DNA of 23,784 bases from a virus. The translations under genes and the position numbers were made by a program. The notes under the pieces are model-generated. The model did not search any database, had not been told where the DNA came from, and saw only the letters and a list, made by a program, of their open reading frames with translations. How positions within the stretch are numbered: position 1 is the stretch's first letter; every line of letters begins with the position of its first letter. Of this stretch, positions 959-17,205 are shown piece by piece. The stretch covers positions 1 to 23,784 of IMG/VR virus record IMGVR_UViG_3300012147_000087, one strand, 5' to 3'.

Positions 959-3900
959 CTATTGTTCGTAGAATTTATCTAGTAGTAATGGAACTCCGTA
1001 AAGCCTACCCATGACTGGTATAGCCTTGAGTGAGTTTACAGTAGCCCGATCTAGCTGACCGTCGTCCAGCAGGTCTGCGGGGGTACGTATTACACCAGCT
1101 AACTGCCCTACGGCAGATATAGGCGCAGGCATACCAATAAGACCATCGTTAGCGTAACGATAGCGTTGTAAAGGTGACGTATTGTTTTCCTGCCCCATGT
1201 AGTCCAGACCCAGCATGTAGGATATGGGGTCTGTAACCATCAAAAGAGGCGATACGTGAGCGGACCAGCTTAGTGTACGGCGTGCTAGAGTTTCTGCATC
1301 CAAATCGTCCAGTTTACCGTTAATCGTTGCACTGGCTGTAACCGCTAGACCAGACCATGCCATGTTATATGCAAGTTCTGCTGCGGCCTGTCTATCAGCA
1401 AGACGAGCATTACGCATCGCTTTACTGAACATTGCGTTCATAGCGAATGTTTTGAGACTGGTCATAACAGAGGTTAGATCGTTTCTATTTGCAAAAGCAT
1501 GACCCTGACCGCGTCGTGTTTTCTGTACGTCGTAATCAACACTTAGCTTGTTTACACTGCGTAGGGTGTCCAGATCATCTGGGTCCCAGTTCTCAATGTT
1601 TAAATTAACAATGTGCCCTTTGTCATTACGAGTTATGACTGTCTGGTAATTATCTATAATGTTTCTCATGTTCTGATCTACACCCATCGAGCGTAAGCGT
1701 TTGTCAGAAATAGACCCATCTTTTATACCATTGAACAGAAAGTTTACGTTGATCTCGGAAGACAGTTTTTGCTGCCACCCGGTTACTTTATAAAACATAC
1801 TCACGTGACCCATAAGTCTTTGGCCTTTATCGAGAGCCATATCTATACTCTTGCCCAAGTTAGGTGTGTCCCACATAGGGAGTTTTCCAGAGTCGCCCCG
1901 ACCATACGTGACCTCATCCAAGTTAAGGATGCGTCCTTGTAACTCGTCCGGGCGGTAGTACGTCCCAGCCGCAGACATAGCGTCTACAACATCGTTTGGC
2001 ATACCTTTTAAATGCTCTAAAAACGACTTTCCTGTTTGTCTTTTAAAACCTACAGCATTGGACTTAGCCATTAGAATACCTGTCTCAGCAATCTGAGTGA
2101 TACCTAATTGCGATAAGTAGGCCAAACGCCCTGCACGATTCAACCGGCTCGTAAATGGAGTAACACCACCACTGTACGCACCCTCGTTGAACATAGAGAA
2201 TATGTCTTCCGCAATAGCTGCGGCTCTACGAGGATCGGTACCCTGTTGGCGAGCAGCGTCTTCTGCGGCCTGTACCCATGCTGCGACATCGCGCTTTTGC
2301 ATGAGACCGTCCGAAGCAGCTACACGACCTATTTCACCAGACTGTCCCCGAGAGGCGTTGTCCAGTGCACCGTAAACATCGTTGTTAATCAAATCAAGAA
2401 TAGTCTTGTCTGTGCCTGTAATCGGCTGAGTGTAGTCCATACCAATACGACTACGTGTAGTTTTAGAAGTACCTTTTTCTGGGTTGGTGTAAAGGATCGA
2501 GTTTACACGTTTCGTAATCTCTGCATCTGTCATACCGCGTTCTCTCATCACGTCTTCTATCGTAGCCCTACCGTCTTGCGACACACCCATAAGAGAACTC
2601 ATGGGGCTACCCTGTTTGAAGTCTTGAGCGTGGCGCTTTATGGCTGTCGCCAAGTCAAATGCTAAGTCTTCGTCTATGTCCGGGCTGTACGTAATGATTG
2701 CCTGCTTTACATCCTGTACGAGTTGCTTGGTCGTAACTTGACGCTCCATGCGGTTCCATGCGTCTTTATCCCAAGATACATGGAAGTGACCCTCAACTTC
2801 TTTTACGTCCTCAAAGCCCTCTGTCTTGTACTTTTTATGGTACCCAAACAAAACCTTGTAACCCGCACCAATATCTTCGGCAGCGGCTATGACGTGAGGA
2901 TCAGCAGGTATCGTACGACCCATTTTTTTATGGGCCATGTATTTCTGCACTTCTCTTCCAAACTCAAGGTGCCCCTCGTTGTGGACCCAGCGGCGTACAA
3001 GACTGTACCCTTTGTTCTTGGCCCAGCCCTGATAGCGACTACCGTAAAACGGTGTATAGGCTGATCGGGCTTTGTCTTCTACGAGGTTAGCAATGTTATC
3101 TGCACTGCGAGAGTTCGCAATTTGTCCCAGCGGACTGCTTAACATCGTGATAGCCATCTTTTGCAATACAGGGTTACCAGAGTTTATAGCTTTGTCGTAA
3201 TCAGGAGTCATACCGACTTTTTCGAACCCATCGTATATTTTACCCATGACTGTTTGTAAACCCTGTACAGGTAAGCTGGCAAACTCATCACGTTGTACAC
3301 CAAGCTCCCGTAATCCGTACGAATATTCGTCGTTGGTAGCAAGGCTGTTTTCAGCGTACTCAATGATCTCTTTAGACTTAGGACCGACCATAACGATGTC
3401 GTCCTGCGCTGTGAGCTTCCCAGAGCCTACAGAGGCGTTTAAATCCATTTCAGGTGGGTTGTTTAACTCTTGGCGTAAACGTCCCGCTAGAGTAGGCTCG
3501 GAGTCCACAACCTTAGAACCCATGACTTTATCACGGAGGTTGTTTACTCTGTTCTCCCAACCATCGGCAAACTGCTCTTGATTGGGGTTACCTGCTCTCT
3601 CTTTATGATACGCTGATCTGAGATTGAGGAAGTCTTCCACATTACCTTTAGCTTTTTTAAATAAGTCCTGAGCTACTTTGGGCCCGGCAATAACAGCAGT
3701 GTCCAGCATAACTGTCTTCTGTGCGTCTGTCATGTCGTTCGTTACAACTTTAGCATCGAACTCATTTTTATAAAACGTACGTGCGTATTTTTTAGCAGCA
3801 GGCTCGCCCCGCTTCTCACGAATGTTCATGATCTCTTGGAATTGTTGGGGGTACCACCTTTCGGAAATACCCATCATTGTACGACCACCAAGGTCTCCGA

Positions 3901-4930
3901 CCACGTTGGCATACTTACCTTCTGATTTCATAACAAAGTCGATACGGTCTTCCTGAGCTTTCAAGGGTTTGTCTTTACTCACACCCTTACGGAGCCGAGA
4001 AGCCAACCGCATAGTCTCTGTATCATCCATGAACTCGTTGAACTTCGATCCCGGCAACGCGGAACCGATACCCGCACCTAAGAGTGTATTGAACGCAATA
4101 ACTCCGGGGAGGTCGCTAGTATCCACTTGGGGATCAACCGCAGCGCGGCTACCCTCAACCATAAGAGCAGACGCAGCACCCGCCATAGCACCGTCTATAG
4201 TGTTGTCGAGTTTACGTGCTTTTATCCGGGTACCTGTTTCTTTTAGCTTCTGTATTCTACGGACATTCTTCATCTTTGAATACAGGCCACCACCTACGAC
4301 AACATCCACATCTGGGATACTGCCTATAAAGTACGGTACAACGCCTGTCCAAAAACCGGAGTTAGCGATGTGGCGAAGCTGCTCTTGTGTCGTAGCAATC
4401 TCCTCTTTACGCATACCGTATTCTAAACCACCCGCAGCAGTACCCAAGGAAGCTGCCTCAGGGCCCCGTGGGTCCAATCCCAACTCTGCTACGTCTCTGT
4501 CGATCATAGCGCGAGTTTCAGGATCAGAGTTGTCCCACGAGTCCTCTTTGTACGGATCGTTAAACATAACGTCCAGCATACCGTCAGGAATACTGTCGTT
4601 CTCCATAACCATTGCTACGTCCCGGGCTATAGCGTCCGTGATGCTATCATAAGCGGACATGTTTGCAGCCGCCTTTAGAGAACCACCAATCTGCTCTAAT
4701 ACAGTGGTGTTCTCCCGGAACTCTTCTTGTTCTGCGTCAGCTTGTGCTTTATTAGAGTCCTGTACAATACCGAAACGATTAGGGTCTCCACCTATAGTAG
4801 AAGCAATACCTAATGCAGCGTTTTTACGATCAATAATTTTAGACGTGGTAGACTCTGCCTCTACTTTAGCAGCAGCCTCGCGGGCTAATGCGCGGTCTCT
4901 CATGTTGGTTAGTACGCTATCATCAGTCAT
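959..4930 (-). CDS. Internal virion (ejection) protein, gp16-like, with embedded GH108-type muramidase domain
   Basis: A 1323-residue protein occupying the T7 gene 16 position, after gp14- and gp15-like genes and before the tail fibre. T7 gp16 enters the cell envelope at infection, helps form the DNA-ejection channel and cuts peptidoglycan. The start is supported by AGGAG seven bases before ATG. T7 gp16 (1318 aa) has a lytic transglycosylase near its N-terminus. Here residues about 325-470 instead resemble glycoside hydrolase family 108 plus its PG_binding_3 partner: SEGKYANVVGDLGGRTMMGI around 336-355 (E337 the likely catalytic acid), LDTAVIAGPKVAQDLF around 409-424, and DGWENRVNNLR around 456-466. 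Residues 190-295 contain Gly/Ala-rich hydrophobic stretches that could contact membrane. The remaining roughly 850 residues are helical with no motif I recognise. The role by position is near certain; the enzyme family is inferred from motif spacing. Confidence 0.92.
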   Translation of the reverse strand: MTDDSVLTNMRDRALAREAAAKVEAESTTSKIIDRKNAALGIASTIGGDPNRFGIVQDSNKAQADAEQEEFRENTTVLEQIGGSLKAAANMSAYDSITDAIARDVAMVMENDSIPDGMLDVMFNDPYKEDSWDNSDPETRAMIDRDVAELGLDPRGPEAASLGTAAGGLEYGMRKEEIATTQEQLRHIANSGFWTGVVPYFIGSIPDVDVVVGGGLYSKMKNVRRIQKLKETGTRIKARKLDNTIDGAMAGAASALMVEGSRAAVDPQVDTSDLPGVIAFNTLLGAGIGSALPGSKFNEFMDDTETMRLASRLRKGVSKDKPLKAQEDRIDFVMKSEGKYANVVGDLGGRTMMGISERWYPQQFQEIMNIREKRGEPAAKKYARTFYKNEFDAKVVTNDMTDAQKTVMLDTAVIAGPKVAQDLFKKAKGNVEDFLNLRSAYHKERAGNPNQEQFADGWENRVNNLRDKVMGSKVVDSEPTLAGRLRQELNNPPEMDLNASVGSGKLTAQDDIVMVGPKSKEIIEYAENSLATNDEYSYGLRELGVQRDEFASLPVQGLQTVMGKIYDGFEKVGMTPDYDKAINSGNPVLQKMAITMLSSPLGQIANSRSADNIANLVEDKARSAYTPFYGSRYQGWAKNKGYSLVRRWVHNEGHLEFGREVQKYMAHKKMGRTIPADPHVIAAAEDIGAGYKVLFGYHKKYKTEGFEDVKEVEGHFHVSWDKDAWNRMERQVTTKQLVQDVKQAIITYSPDIDEDLAFDLATAIKRHAQDFKQGSPMSSLMGVSQDGRATIEDVMRERGMTDAEITKRVNSILYTNPEKGTSKTTRSRIGMDYTQPITGTDKTILDLINNDVYGALDNASRGQSGEIGRVAASDGLMQKRDVAAWVQAAEDAARQQGTDPRRAAAIAEDIFSMFNEGAYSGGVTPFTSRLNRAGRLAYLSQLGITQIAETGILMAKSNAVGFKRQTGKSFLEHLKGMPNDVVDAMSAAGTYYRPDELQGRILNLDEVTYGRGDSGKLPMWDTPNLGKSIDMALDKGQRLMGHVSMFYKVTGWQQKLSSEINVNFLFNGIKDGSISDKRLRSMGVDQNMRNIIDNYQTVITRNDKGHIVNLNIENWDPDDLDTLRSVNKLSVDYDVQKTRRGQGHAFANRNDLTSVMTSLKTFAMNAMFSKAMRNARLADRQAAAELAYNMAWSGLAVTASATINGKLDDLDAETLARRTLSWSAHVSPLLMVTDPISYMLGLDYMGQENNTSPLQRYRYANDGLIGMPAPISAVGQLAGVIRTPADLLDDGQLDRATVNSLKAIPVMGRLYGVPLLLDKFYEQ

Positions 4931-4938
4931 GCAGACTC

Positions 4939-7302
4939 CTATTCATATTTTATATCTTTCAAGACTTGTTTGTAGTGGTCCCCAATTTCAGTAGCAGGTA
5001 CAGCGATGGTACCCAAAGGTCGTCTTTTTCGAGTATCACGTTCGGCGTACACTGTTATCAAAACAGTATTGTTACTGAGTGGGCGCACGTCCATAGGTAG
5101 CCGGGTACGCTCACGGCCCTGATACCCTATACGTGAACCGCTAGTAGGTAACGTAATGTCGGGAAACAGGGCTTCTTTATTGTCGTGTACGTACGAATAC
5201 ACTGCTGTTGTGGAAGCCATAACTTCGGGTATATCAGTAATCCCCAGCATTTCTCTAAAGGCTTGCCCGTTCATTGGGGGGACCATTGTCCCAGCAACCA
5301 ACTCCCATCGTGACAGGTCTTTTTTAACCATATTCGCAATACCTTCTGGGCGCATGTTAGAGTATATATTAGTGTACTCCTCAGCCCTACGCATGGACCA
5401 ATCTTTAATAGAGTCGCTGTTCTTAAAAGCATCCCGTACTTCTTGCTTTACGCTGGTAGTAACCAAACCGTCTGAGGGTGCGCCAACTATACTGGCCCAC
5501 ATCGACGGTTCTAAATCTTTAAAAAAGTTAGCAATGTCGTGATCCACTTTTTTCTTAACTTCCGATACTTTAGTACGCGGTGCGGGTTTCTGATCTTCCG
5601 GAATACGGGTTAATTCCCACGCACTCGTTAAAGCCATCGTGGGGTCCATAGAGCCGTTTTGTAGAAACGCAGCCGTGTTAAAATAATCGTATGTGTCACC
5701 TGCGTACTTTTTGAGTGTGCTTTCACTCACACCCCCTTGACGCATAGCCAAGAAGTAATGTAAGGAACTTTCCACCGCTGGTGAAACTTTACCGTCAACA
5801 AGTGGATGAGATGATCCGGCAAGGGCAAACACCCGCGCTACTTCTTTGTCCACAACTGATGTGGTTCTAAGAAACTCTACGTGTAAGTCTGCCTGATCCT
5901 CGGGTTTGTCGGAGGATTGCTGCACAATGTTACGCTGCATAGCCATAGAAATCTGCTGCTCATCCGGGTCTAATTCGTGAATTGTACCATTAGACAAAGC
6001 ATGAGATGCCCGCTTTTCTTTACGAGCTTGCTCTCTAATTGCTGCCGTATGCCGCTCCATGTCTTTAATCTCAGTGTCTATAATATTGTCCTGAGCGTTG
6101 CGGGCCGTTTCCATTAGGCCCATAACCATATCGTGAGGAAGCTTGAACTTATCGGCAATGAGGAGCCCCAAGTTTGTGATTTCTTCGGTATTTCCCTCAG
6201 CCGCTGCTGCAATAGTAAACTGTGTAAGTGCTTGTACAAAAGCGTCGTCGTGCATTATAGCGAGTTTGTCCACATCATCCTGTTGTCCGATCAGATCGTC
6301 AATGACCTCGTTCACATTAGAGCGTACAAAGTCTTCGCTGAACAGCATCTCCTGTTGAACTTGTGCCAGCTCTTCTTGAGCCTGTTGAGGACCGATATCA
6401 CCAGTCTTCGCACGCGTCTTAATATCACGGATACGCATACGGGTGTCGATAGAGGCTTCCTCTTCACGAATGGCCTGTGCGCTTTTTACTCCAAGCGTGA
6501 TACTTTCCATTTGCGCGGGACTAAACCCCCTATCTCGTAAGCCCTCAGAGCCACCGAAAGCGTCGTACAGCATAAAGTTACCTTCTTTAAGCTGGGGTAC
6601 GATAGCGTTCATAGCGGCTAGTCGTTTTTTGTCCGGGTGCACATCATCGAACTCATCGTACAACTCCACAGACTCTTGTACCATAGCAGGGTCGCCTGTA
6701 GAGGCATCCGCAAACAACATGCTACTAATCGTTGAGGTTGTCTCAGAGTCTAGGAACTCGGTGTTGGCCTCGACCTGTTTAGAAACAAGTTTACCAAAAC
6801 CCTCACTGCCCATAGACTGAAACATCTCACGGGCAAAGGAGTCGTTCGGATCGAGACCATTCATGACCTCTTTTAGTTGGGGCATTAGGACAGTCTTCTG
6901 GTACTCTGTGGAGTCCATACCCGCGTGTTCGTTGATTGCGTCATGTGCTGCTTTAGCGTACCACTCGGAGTATCCCGTTTTCATTTTAAGAGTTTGGTAG
7001 CCCTTTAAAACGTGTCGGTTGTATCCGGCATCAGCCATGTCTTGCTCAGACTTTCCCTGTGCCCGGAGCATAGCCCCAGTCACTTCGTCCTCACTTCTTT
7101 TCTTATCGAGGTATCCTTGTAAAGCCTGACCGCCCATACGGACACCTTCTGCGAGTGCCCGACCAGCAGCCCCGACTTGGCTCATGTCTCCCCCACGTGG
7201 GGCTTGAACACTAACCATACCGAGCTGTCTGACTGGTACATTGGCTTGCCCGCTAGGACCGCCTGAAGGAATAACCTGTCGTGTCTCTAATCCATCTACC
7301 AT
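4939..7302 (-). CDS. Internal virion protein, gp15-like
   Basis: A 787-residue protein between the gp14-like and gp16-like genes; T7 gp15 has 747 residues. In T7, gp15 is part of the internal core and, with gp14 and gp16, forms the trans-envelope conduit for genome ejection. The start is supported by AGGAG five bases before ATG at 7302. The sequence is soluble, helical and rich in charged residues, with a Gly/Pro-rich first 40 residues (IPSGGPSGQ, VQAPRGGDMSQVG) like other podoviral gp15 proteins. I see no signal peptide, clear membrane segment or catalytic motif. It ends eight bases before the next ATG, consistent with coupled translation. The assignment rests on position, length and composition more than on motifs, because this family is very divergent. 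Confidence 0.85.
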   Translation of the reverse strand: MVDGLETRQVIPSGGPSGQANVPVRQLGMVSVQAPRGGDMSQVGAAGRALAEGVRMGGQALQGYLDKKRSEDEVTGAMLRAQGKSEQDMADAGYNRHVLKGYQTLKMKTGYSEWYAKAAHDAINEHAGMDSTEYQKTVLMPQLKEVMNGLDPNDSFAREMFQSMGSEGFGKLVSKQVEANTEFLDSETTSTISSMLFADASTGDPAMVQESVELYDEFDDVHPDKKRLAAMNAIVPQLKEGNFMLYDAFGGSEGLRDRGFSPAQMESITLGVKSAQAIREEEASIDTRMRIRDIKTRAKTGDIGPQQAQEELAQVQQEMLFSEDFVRSNVNEVIDDLIGQQDDVDKLAIMHDDAFVQALTQFTIAAAAEGNTEEITNLGLLIADKFKLPHDMVMGLMETARNAQDNIIDTEIKDMERHTAAIREQARKEKRASHALSNGTIHELDPDEQQISMAMQRNIVQQSSDKPEDQADLHVEFLRTTSVVDKEVARVFALAGSSHPLVDGKVSPAVESSLHYFLAMRQGGVSESTLKKYAGDTYDYFNTAAFLQNGSMDPTMALTSAWELTRIPEDQKPAPRTKVSEVKKKVDHDIANFFKDLEPSMWASIVGAPSDGLVTTSVKQEVRDAFKNSDSIKDWSMRRAEEYTNIYSNMRPEGIANMVKKDLSRWELVAGTMVPPMNGQAFREMLGITDIPEVMASTTAVYSYVHDNKEALFPDITLPTSGSRIGYQGRERTRLPMDVRPLSNNTVLITVYAERDTRKRRPLGTIAVPATEIGDHYKQVLKDIKYE

Positions 7303-7313
7303 ATTATCTCCTA

Positions 7314-7805
7314 TTAACCCATGCCAGTCATATTGCCAGATTGTCTTACGTTGTTCCTTAATGCTTTAAACATGTACATACCCAAGCTTGGCTTAGGTAA
7401 ATAAGACAAGTCTTGGTTCTGTACAGCCGATAGAGCAGAGCTTCTACGTTGTTGCTTCTCTTGCAAGAAGTATTGCTGTAGATCGTCTGCTCTCTGTTTT
7501 TCCATCATACCCGCATTGCGCTTAACATCTAAAATAGACGCATCGACACTCCTGCCCCTAACACCCGCAGCCCCTGCGGCAACTACCGTGGAGCCTAGGG
7601 CACTAAGTTCGTCCCTCCGCATGTGTACTGCCCGCTTTGCGGACTGTTGGATGGTGAGGGTTGTGTTTTGCGTAATGCTATTTTGGTTCATAGCATTCGC
7701 AATATTCGTCATCTTATTACGGTAAGCCTGCATAGCCTTTTGGGCTTCCCAGCGTTTTTTATCGGCCCGGTATTCGAGGCCAGCACTGATATATTCTAGT
7801 ACCAT
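7314..7805 (-). CDS. Internal virion protein, gp14-like
   Basis: A 163-residue protein in the T7 gene 14 position; T7 gp14 has 196 residues. The family makes the smallest ejected core protein, which in T7 ends up in the host outer membrane as a pore. An Ala/Gly patch, STVVAAGAAGVRGRSVDASI around residues 72-91, matches the hallmark segment of podoviral gp14 proteins. It is followed by a long charged helix (KRNAGMMEKQRADDLQQYFL). The N-terminal 40 residues form a basic helix. The start has a very strong Shine-Dalgarno, AGGAGG, lying in the last codons of tail tubular B, so the two genes are translationally linked. There is no signal peptide, as expected for a protein packaged in the head first. 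Confidence 0.88.
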   Translation of the reverse strand: MVLEYISAGLEYRADKKRWEAQKAMQAYRNKMTNIANAMNQNSITQNTTLTIQQSAKRAVHMRRDELSALGSTVVAAGAAGVRGRSVDASILDVKRNAGMMEKQRADDLQQYFLQEKQQRRSSALSAVQNQDLSYLPKPSLGMYMFKALRNNVRQSGNMTGMG

Positions 7806-14793: not shown

Positions 14794-17205
14794 CTATGCA
14801 AAAAAGTACTCAGACTCAAGTATTCTGTTGAGGTCTAAATCACCCCGATCCGGGGTCGGTGGGATACCACCATTAGGTAGCGACATGGCTGTTGTGATGT
14901 ACAGATCGTATAGCGGATCATGGTCTTTGTACATGTTCACAAATACTCTTTGTATTACATTACGAAACCGCTCTACGTCACAAGCATGTGTACCGAAGTC
15001 ATCGTGTATCATAGAAAATCTGGTAATACCGTGGTCCACGGCCTCGTTTATAGTCAGCATCATGTGTGCTGAGTCAAGACTGTGTACAAAGTTAGGGGCA
15101 ATACCCTGCATCTGCTTTTCTGGACTGATTATTTTCGTGTCTACTGATAACCTAAGCCGTATGTCGCCCATGAGTGAGGTGTGGACCCGTGTGCTGGTAG
15201 TCTTCTTGACAGCCATATACACTGGGAAGCCTGCGGGGTTTACCCACCAAACAGGGAGGTTACTGCCTGCGGTCTGTTTGGCAACTTCCTGTAGCCACGT
15301 CATAGCGTCCCTCGCGGATACAACAATGTCACTGATGGACTCCCACAGGCTATTGTTAAAGTAGCTAGCAGCCTTATTCACATCCTCGAAGAAGTACCTA
15401 TCGAGCTCCATGAGAGCATCCACGACAAACCCGAAACAGGAATATTTAGTAGAGCCGTAGGGTAAAGTCATTACAGGACGCTTGGCAATCTTACGAGATA
15501 TACCTCCGTGCTTATCTGCAAAAGCCAACCACTGAGTACGCTCCTCCGAATACGGCATTTCCTTGATCCGTTCCAAGGCCCTGTCCGCTACCTGTTGGTA
15601 AACATCAGCGGGTTGGTCGGATGGTACCAGATTGGTAGCGGCACCGCCCACAGTGTCCCGTAGCAGGGCTGAGAAGTTTTGTAAGCCATTACAGCTACCG
15701 TCCATACCTACAGGGAGATAACTGATAAACGCATCGGGATCATACACCGCTTCGGCGTATTCCAAACAGAACGCTAGGAACATATACGGTGAGTCTGCAT
15801 CGGACCAGAAGTCAAGGTACCCTAGCGGGTCCTCGGCTGTGCGTTGGATGTGCTGGATGTTATCCGTAACCCACCGTACGCGGTCGTCGAAGCTGACTTT
15901 GTCCACCCCGAAGCAGTTAGCACCGTGTACCGCCAACCAGTAAAGCCCATTCTCACCCAGCACCTTACCCTCTTTGAAAGTGAGCAACGCGCGGTTGAAG
16001 TCGGACCCTTGTGGGTTCAGCCCCGAGCTTGAAGCGTACACACGCCCTCTAAAATCGCACTGGTACACGAACCATATTTCTTTGTACTGGCTATAGTTAG
16101 AAGCCATCTGTATTACACGTGCAACCTCGTAAGCCCGAGAGGCTCGGCTGATCTCATCTGTGTACAACTGAGATATCTCTGCTTTCCAGACTAAGAACTC
16201 CTTGAAGGTTGCCGCATCCATCTCCTTAGGTGGGGTGTCCACCCGGAACTTCGGCATGTCTCTAGGCTCCTTATTCGGTAGGCCCACAGCAAGATTACGG
16301 CCCCATACATCTTTGAGGATGCCAAGGACAGCCCGGTTTATTTTCCACGGGGTTCGTTGCATCGCGTTCACAGCAGAGTAAACCACACTCAGGTCATGAT
16401 CTTGTACGAAATCTTGCTCGGGCCCGTTCAGGCCCTTAATAAAGGGTGTTCGTTGGCGCATGGCCTCAGACCAGTACCCACCACTGTTCAAGCCCGTCCA
16501 GTCGTCTGGTGGAATGATGCAGGGCTTCGTATAAGGGTGCAGGAGAGAGGCGTACTCGTTGTACGATCCTATCCACTCCACGGCCTCCGGGGTAGCAACG
16601 ACAATATAGCTGTACCGATTGTTTCGGAGCTTCTTTTTGGAGATGGTAACAAGGTCTGTTGCTTTCAGAACTTGGTCCAGTAACGCGGTACCCACGCCCA
16701 CTCTAACGTCCTTAGGCCACGAGTCCCACTGCATACCCTTTTTCTTGGAGGTCACTGCTAGTACATTACGCATGTGTCGGTAAGCCTTGGTGTTTTTACG
16801 GCTAAAGTCTTTCATGATCGTAGCGTAATACTCCGGGTTCATCTGCTTAAAAGCTGAGAACCTTTGCTCATCCTCTAGGAACAGACCAATGTCCATAGAC
16901 ACTTGTGTTACTGTGCGGGACAGGTGCAGCTTGTTAAGTACTGTCTTTAGGACTATGTAAGCTACAGACTCGTAGTTCATACCCTTGAGCATCTTTTTGT
17001 AACGCCCGTGTTTTCTGGCACCCTCATCGCAAAACTCTTCTATCTGTGCGGCTAATGGTCGGACCAGCTTGTTTAAAAGCTGTTGCCCATAGCCCGTGTC
17101 CGCACCGCGTCCTTGGTCCTGAGCAGCGGTTGCACTCGTAGTGTACCGCTCTACGCCTTGGAGTACCAAGTCGTCTTCTAACAATAGTTGATCCTGTAGC
17201 TCCAT
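14794..17205 (-). CDS. Single-subunit DNA-dependent RNA polymerase (T7 gp1-like)
   Basis: An 803-residue T7-family RNA polymerase (T7 883; phiKMV-type enzymes are also shorter). It transcribes phage genes from phage-specific promoters. Catalytic landmarks are all present: D502 in MDGSCNGLQNFSALLRD (T7 D537), K575 and Y583 in AKRPVMTLPYGS (T7 K631 and Y639, same eight-residue spacing), GIAPNFVHSLDSAH around 701-714, and D735 in MIHDDFGTH (T7 D812; the next residue is D instead of S). The specificity loop around 664-698 differs from T7 at promoter-reading positions. It starts by a TAATG overlap with the endonuclease VII gene, preceded by AAAGG. Its placement after the replication genes and before the virion genes is the phiKMV-type order. 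Confidence 0.98.
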   Translation of the reverse strand: MELQDQLLLEDDLVLQGVERYTTSATAAQDQGRGADTGYGQQLLNKLVRPLAAQIEEFCDEGARKHGRYKKMLKGMNYESVAYIVLKTVLNKLHLSRTVTQVSMDIGLFLEDEQRFSAFKQMNPEYYATIMKDFSRKNTKAYRHMRNVLAVTSKKKGMQWDSWPKDVRVGVGTALLDQVLKATDLVTISKKKLRNNRYSYIVVATPEAVEWIGSYNEYASLLHPYTKPCIIPPDDWTGLNSGGYWSEAMRQRTPFIKGLNGPEQDFVQDHDLSVVYSAVNAMQRTPWKINRAVLGILKDVWGRNLAVGLPNKEPRDMPKFRVDTPPKEMDAATFKEFLVWKAEISQLYTDEISRASRAYEVARVIQMASNYSQYKEIWFVYQCDFRGRVYASSSGLNPQGSDFNRALLTFKEGKVLGENGLYWLAVHGANCFGVDKVSFDDRVRWVTDNIQHIQRTAEDPLGYLDFWSDADSPYMFLAFCLEYAEAVYDPDAFISYLPVGMDGSCNGLQNFSALLRDTVGGAATNLVPSDQPADVYQQVADRALERIKEMPYSEERTQWLAFADKHGGISRKIAKRPVMTLPYGSTKYSCFGFVVDALMELDRYFFEDVNKAASYFNNSLWESISDIVVSARDAMTWLQEVAKQTAGSNLPVWWVNPAGFPVYMAVKKTTSTRVHTSLMGDIRLRLSVDTKIISPEKQMQGIAPNFVHSLDSAHMMLTINEAVDHGITRFSMIHDDFGTHACDVERFRNVIQRVFVNMYKDHDPLYDLYITTAMSLPNGGIPPTPDRGDLDLNRILESEYFFA

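Follow-up and report, generated by a model that had tools for sequence, protein, structure and literature searches.

The virus record IMGVR_UViG_3300012147_000087 (hereafter the window, meaning the whole stretch of 23.8 kb that was analyzed) carries T7-like late genes on its minus strand, and one of them, an open reading frame at 959-4930 (minus strand), encodes a gp16-like ejection protein of 1323 residues that harbors a GH108-type muramidase domain. The late-gene set consists of genes for portal, scaffold, capsid and tail proteins, gp14-like, gp15-like and gp16-like proteins and a tail fibre, with RNA polymerase and DNA-metabolism genes upstream. The order gp14-like, gp15-like, gp16-like and tail fibre is that of T7-like ejectosomes, which counts in favor of the role proposed below.

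A GH108 domain inside a gp16-like ejection protein

The profile phrog_342 (internal virion protein with endolysin domain) covers residues 30-1316 of the protein (E = 3.1e-89), and a profile built from ten relatives covers residues 176-1319 (E = 1e-108); the conserved gp16 C-lobe, residues 498-1320 (971-3439, minus strand), was delimited by HHalign against the ten relatives (E = 1e-58). Judged by this full-length homology and by the place of its gene between the gp15-like and tail fibre genes, the protein is a member of the gp16-like family. T7 gp16, also named internal virion protein D, has the same operon position, size, family (phrog_342) and presumed wall-cutting function at genome entry, but its GH23-type lytic transglycosylase occupies residues 1-156, before the first transmembrane helical region (TMH I). 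No Pfam family matches the N-terminal 328 residues of the window protein, in which a T7-style transglycosylase ahead of TMH I was therefore not found. Over its whole length there is no SLT (PF01464) match in Pfam, and SLT_L at residues 1164-1202 reaches 15.4 bits, below the cut-off of 25. Since the N-terminal transglycosylase is also missing in many gp16-like relatives, it marks the type of T7 and Cd1 rather than the wider family.

A first-pass annotation, made by reading the sequence, had placed a GH108-type muramidase at 3521-3958, that is, residues 325-470, of an otherwise recognizable gp16-like protein. These coordinates are correct, with the addition that the gene lies on the minus strand, and the three motifs on which the proposal was based are present at residues 336-355, 409-424 and 456-466. 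The Pfam family Glyco_hydro_108 (PF05838) matches residues 331-416 (3683-3940, minus strand) over positions 2-85 of its 85-position profile, with a score of 39 bits, above the cut-off of 21.2 (E = 1.2e-9), and no other family exceeds its cut-off in the protein. A six-frame search of the record returned the same family at the identical place (43.8 bits, E = 6.7e-13). A structure model of residues 296-500, computed by AlphaFold from an alignment of 40 sequences (the window and viral-contig loci only), has a predicted local distance difference test score (pLDDT) of 86, and above 90 across most of the GH108 domain. The folded domain comprises residues 322-473 (3512-3967, minus strand), as delimited by aligning model residues 27-178 to 7dnp, the GH108 protein SagA of Brucella abortus, which is the best solved match of the model, with 140 residues superimposed at 2.6 Å (VIA Z 14.3) and a Foldseek E of 7e-4. 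The Z for 2ikb is 11.3. GH46 chitosanases (up to 11.5) and phage lysozymes also score lower than 7dnp, as expected for a lysozyme-like fold. When a profile of the aligned domains was compared with the PDB, only GH108-type proteins were retrieved (7dnp, E = 9e-53). SagA shares the fold and the active-site pattern with the window domain, to which it is 22-24% identical, but it is a stand-alone bacterial protein, whereas the domain described here is part of an ejection protein. The profile search and the predicted fold confirm, far beyond chance, a GH108-type muramidase domain within the gp16-like protein. The PG_binding_3 partner (PF09374) that was also claimed is undetectable in this protein even at E up to 10; in two homologues (L002 and L156) it matches below threshold, with 21.4 and 22.5 bits against a cut-off of 24.6.

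The active-site residues are in place. The glutamate singled out by the first reading, E337 (codon 3920-3922, minus strand), occupies the catalytic Glu position of GH108, and D346 (3893-3895, minus strand) that of the second carboxylate; both are invariant in the 40 aligned GH108 sequences, and T351 (3878-3880, minus strand), which completes the pattern E-8x-D-4x-T, is nearly so. All eight invariant columns of the alignment, including E337 and D346, are kept in the window domain. The motif around E337, SEGKY, departs from the family in its third position, with EGKY where EGGY is found elsewhere in GH108. The loop DGxIGPxT, usual in GH108, is absent, which makes the C-lobe compact; as free-standing compact GH108 proteins share this absence, it was rejected as a trait of virion-type enzymes. 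In T4 lysozyme, the catalytic triad of T4-type lysozymes (Glu-Asp-Thr) is formed by E11, D20 and T26. The resemblance of the E-8x-D-4x-T pattern to this triad favors hydrolysis over transglycosylation, and we infer from the family and the active-site residues that the cleavage chemistry probably differs from that of a transglycosylase.

Exchange of wall enzymes among ejection proteins

The nearest relative found, IMGVR_UViG_3300002056_000005 (L149; 43,956 bp), has a nozzle protein 63% identical to that of the window and a gp15-like protein 42% identical over its full length, likewise devoid of a hydrolase. Residues 24-315 of the window gp16-like protein align with residues 19-298 of its L149 counterpart (L149:15808-19818; E = 2e-32), and a second flank aligns by BLAST over residues 416-1320 with 452-1335 (E = 9e-132), with real homology from about residue 478 as judged by MAFFT; both flanks are 32-33% identical. 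Between them lies an insert, residues about 316-477 in the window (3500-3985, minus strand). At residues about 322-490, L149 has a lytic transglycosylase of the phiKZ gp144 type (GH23), recognized as SLT in Pfam and assigned to that type by phmmer (E = 1.9e-34); its identity rests on sequence, a single-sequence model having been discarded (pLDDT 55). The two phages thus share the insertion site, the homologous flanks and the hydrolase-free gp15-like partner, but differ in the enzyme inserted, GH108 in one and GH23 in the other, and this difference provides the best evidence supporting a swap.

Most other relatives carry their wall enzyme elsewhere. The gp16-like C-lobe is closest to those of Autographiviridae of alphaproteobacteria (20-27% identity), and the nozzle protein agrees with this affiliation (up to 44% identity among named phages). 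Hydrolase_2 (SleB) is found near residue 245 of the gp15-like proteins of Rhizobium, Stappia and Nostoc phages, SLT in that of ParMal1 and a GH24-type lysozyme (PF00959) at the C-terminus of those of LKA1 and MR16, while that of an Agrobacterium phage is annotated as a cell wall hydrolase; the gp16-like proteins of these phages have no Pfam-detectable wall enzyme. Caulobacter phage Cd1, like T7, has SLT at the N-terminus of gp16. MedPE-SWcel-C56 and the Vibrio phage of L015 showed no wall enzyme in either their gp15-like or their gp16-like protein. Wherever a wall enzyme was detected in relatives, its host protein is gp15-like or gp16-like.

The gp15-like protein of the window (787 residues; 4939-7302, minus strand), identified by profile match, has no wall-cutting domain, and searching it with Pfam at E up to 1 revealed no hydrolase. 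When a profile was made from ten gp15-like relatives, with the window excluded, it aligned with the protein in two pieces, positions 19-195 with residues 18-198 and positions 460-1013 with residues 203-722. The 264 profile columns missing at residues 198-203 (6694-6711, minus strand) are the hydrolase segment, SleB or SLT in relatives. The window phage therefore has its wall enzyme in the gp16-like protein and none in the gp15-like one. Compared with most relatives, the sequences support the view that the wall enzyme differs in both its host protein and its chemistry. No second wall enzyme emerged from the Pfam scan of the gp14-like (163 residues; 7314-7805, minus strand; PF24072 T7_gp14, E = 1e-10), gp15-like and nozzle proteins of the window.

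The gp15-like protein of Nostoc phage NMeng1 (L011:2197-6096) has two wall-cutting domains, Hydrolase_2 at residues 245-344 and Peptidase_M15_3 at 446-527, and its record is classed as Atuphduovirus though the stated host is Nostoc. In Pseudomonas phage Oiolarie (PP954862, 27,326 bp; L063), the gp15-like protein is annotated as endolysin and no gp16-like coding sequence follows. The record ends with a misc_feature that resembles a DNA transfer protein, so the genome may be rearranged or the gene broken. For L158, L165, L167, L170, L174 and L178 the Pfam scan covered the gp15-like rather than the gp16-like proteins and found no wall hydrolase; these phages may use a wall enzyme of a kind not yet described or carry it elsewhere. 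As to the remainder of the window, a T7-type RNA polymerase gene (14794-17205, minus strand) directly precedes the structural genes and is itself preceded by genes for DNA polymerase, exonuclease and endonuclease VII, a placement like that in phiKMV-like phages and unlike the early position in T7.

In T7 gp16, the N-terminal 228 residues are assigned to the periplasm, TMH I to residues 243-410 and TMH II to residues 1119-1290, and residues 411-1118 are placed in the cytoplasm (PMC8954989). The segment of the window protein equivalent to TMH I according to the family profile alignment, residues about 176-315 (3986-4405, minus strand), precedes the GH108 domain. The profile matches T7 gp16 at 267-405 by HHalign (E = 6e-4, probability 29%) and at 276-433 by HMMER (8 bits); the match is weak, but both programs point to about the same stretch of T7 gp16, the one occupied by TMH I, so that GH108 would sit where the cytoplasmic part of T7 gp16 begins. 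The linker at this site ranges from 9 to 258 residues across 44 gp16-like proteins, and the three largest contain GH23 (L149) or the ADP-ribosyltransferase domain ART-PolyVal (L036; L030, from the same phage as L166). The latter domain was found at L036:2331-2663 (plus strand; 55 bits, cut-off 31.2) and at residues 351-432 of the L166 gp16-like protein (44 bits, same cut-off), and the records of the ART-PolyVal phages also show a SleB-type match. A sub-threshold ART-PolyVal match (28.9 bits) occurs at 429-614 in Vibrio phage K437b g2 (L016). It is possible that an ADP-ribosyltransferase in a gp16-like protein is an effector delivered alongside DNA. We read the linker behind TMH I as a putative insertion-tolerant bay.

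The first-pass annotation had interpreted the domain as a replacement of the T7 enzyme, with displacement of the module relative to the membrane-active parts. L149 supports the exchange, one for one, of this enzyme and a lytic transglycosylase, and the module does lie past the segment that aligns, weakly, with TMH I of T7 gp16. The reference point is nonetheless a different one: as most relatives have the enzyme in the gp15-like protein and none in gp16, the comparison with T7 does not capture the relevant event, and the internal site that the window and L149 have in common need not derive from the N-terminal module of T7 by displacement.

Origin and rarity of the domain

GH108 was found in none of 42 gp16-related records, for which the window served as positive control. 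A scan of viral contigs with the single gp16-like protein yielded nothing, scans with two alignments (A6 and A7) returned L149 and nothing else, and bacterial and archaeal genome contigs yielded no relative. GH108 at the internal gp16 site is represented by one sequence, that of the window. A phylogeny of 92 GH108 domains, in which bootstrap values were not fully settled and the window branch is long, pairs the window domain with L237, a free-standing protein of 141 residues from another viral contig that is 37-39% identical to it (support 99/95). Both belong to a group of 11, 9 of which come from proteins of more than 600 residues (support 99/94).

Three origins were considered and set aside. 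A copy of the phage's own type of endolysin is at odds with the distant position in the tree of the L149 endolysin GH108 (L229); the exclusion is incomplete, as the L149 enzyme served as proxy for that of the window, a fragment without the endolysin region. The L149 genome encodes a free-standing GH108 protein of 161 residues (L234:8477-8962), probably an endolysin, whose GH108 branch differs from that of the window domain. Common descent with the virion GH108 domains of Podoviridae sp. ctHz2215 and L156 (six rows in one clade) was rejected in the larger tree (p = 0.003), which adds the closer L237, and not in a small tree (p = 0.46). Composition does not point to recent foreign origin, as the domain has an ordinary GC content at third codon positions (GC3) and a codon use that fits the phage. 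In ctHz2215 (MW202485) and L156, as in the window, a compact GH108 is found inside an ejection protein, but the host protein is gp15-positioned in the former and truly gp15-like in the latter.

Virion-associated muramidases also belong to the T7-like ejectosomes of phiKMV (gp36), SP6 (gp36), K1-5 and LKA1 (PMC5380687; PMC8954989), where they sit in the protein at the gp15 position, in contrast to the gp16-like location in the window. The hydrolase domain has been described as able to swap between gp16 and gp15 homologues, with K1E and K1-5 as named examples (PMC8954989), and several BFVD entries of 560-897 residues are named TtsA-like GH108 proteins. That hydrolase modules move from one ejection protein to another, and that large phage proteins can contain GH108, is therefore known already. 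We did not find GH108 inside gp16, an internal site common with GH23, or a place behind TMH I described; a published list of virion-associated lysins of podoviruses does not contain the term GH108 (PMC5380687), and a limited literature test did not find 'internal virion protein' and 'GH108' together.

A proposed role at genome entry

We consider it likely that the domain is an entry muramidase, carried in the virion within the gp16-like protein, that cuts the host wall and has been exchanged with GH23 at one gp16 site. It would leave the head together with the gp16-like protein and hydrolyze the bond between N-acetylmuramic acid and N-acetylglucosamine in the glycan strands of host peptidoglycan, and the resulting opening may let the gp14-gp15-gp16 channel cross. 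It would have replaced a GH23 lytic transglycosylase, or the reverse, in a phage whose gp15-like partner has no wall enzyme of the kind found there in most relatives. As it follows the TMH I equivalent, GH108 most likely acts with gp16 still periplasmic, either ahead of its insertion into the inner membrane or in the course of it. More tentatively, the site might be an exchangeable bay for a muramidase, a lytic transglycosylase or an ADP-ribosyltransferase, the wall-enzyme versions of which would work in the periplasm. A wall enzyme behind TMH I would then act in transit, before gp16 reaches its final place, or the topology would differ from that of T7, with TMH I not crossing as assumed, and the model that puts T7 residues 411-1118 in the cytoplasm would be incomplete.

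Three points weigh against an entry muramidase. Under the T7 topology (PMC8954989), the part of the protein behind TMH I would come to lie in the cytoplasm, which is free of peptidoglycan; the record is a fragment, and the rest of the genome could hold other wall enzymes; and the case depends on a single sequence, whose branch is long, at 1.81 changes per site, and which has EGKY instead of EGGY. The long branch, the weakened motif, the single copy and the site behind the TMH I equivalent would also suit a vestigial or purely structural, inactive GH108, the wall being opened by another virion protein. This is unlikely given that all eight invariant columns are kept, with both carboxylates, that the gp14-like, gp15-like and nozzle proteins hold no other wall enzyme and that the gp15-like protein lacks its own. 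Somewhat less probable still is that the site serves as a cargo bay to the host cytoplasm, where GH108 would function, or that the domain plays no part in entry. ADP-ribosyltransferases, whose targets are expected to be cytoplasmic, do occupy the linker in L036 and L030/L166, and the corresponding part of T7 gp16 is modeled in that compartment, but the substrate of GH108 lies outside it, and two unrelated wall enzymes at the site together with a gp15 lacking any point to a role at the wall. Finally, the occurrence of GH108 at the gp16 site in one contig, with no close relative found to have it there, might suggest an assembly chimera, with two metagenomic fragments fused within the gene. This we regard as very improbable, since the frame is open over all 1323 residues, the domain has unremarkable GC3 and codon use, both flanks belong to one protein family and align to one relative, L149, and the boundary falls in a linker where other phages have inserts as well.

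Models of how gp16 threads through the wall and the inner membrane during T7-like entry rest only on partial structures. A wall enzyme located behind the first membrane-active region, at a site where two unrelated enzymes occur, would provide a direct test of this topology. The comparison also shows that, within one phage clade, the wall cutter differs in the protein that carries it and probably in its chemistry, with the ejectosome still recognizable, and it may help to annotate virion lysins that are filed as hypothetical proteins or, wrongly, as transglycosylases.

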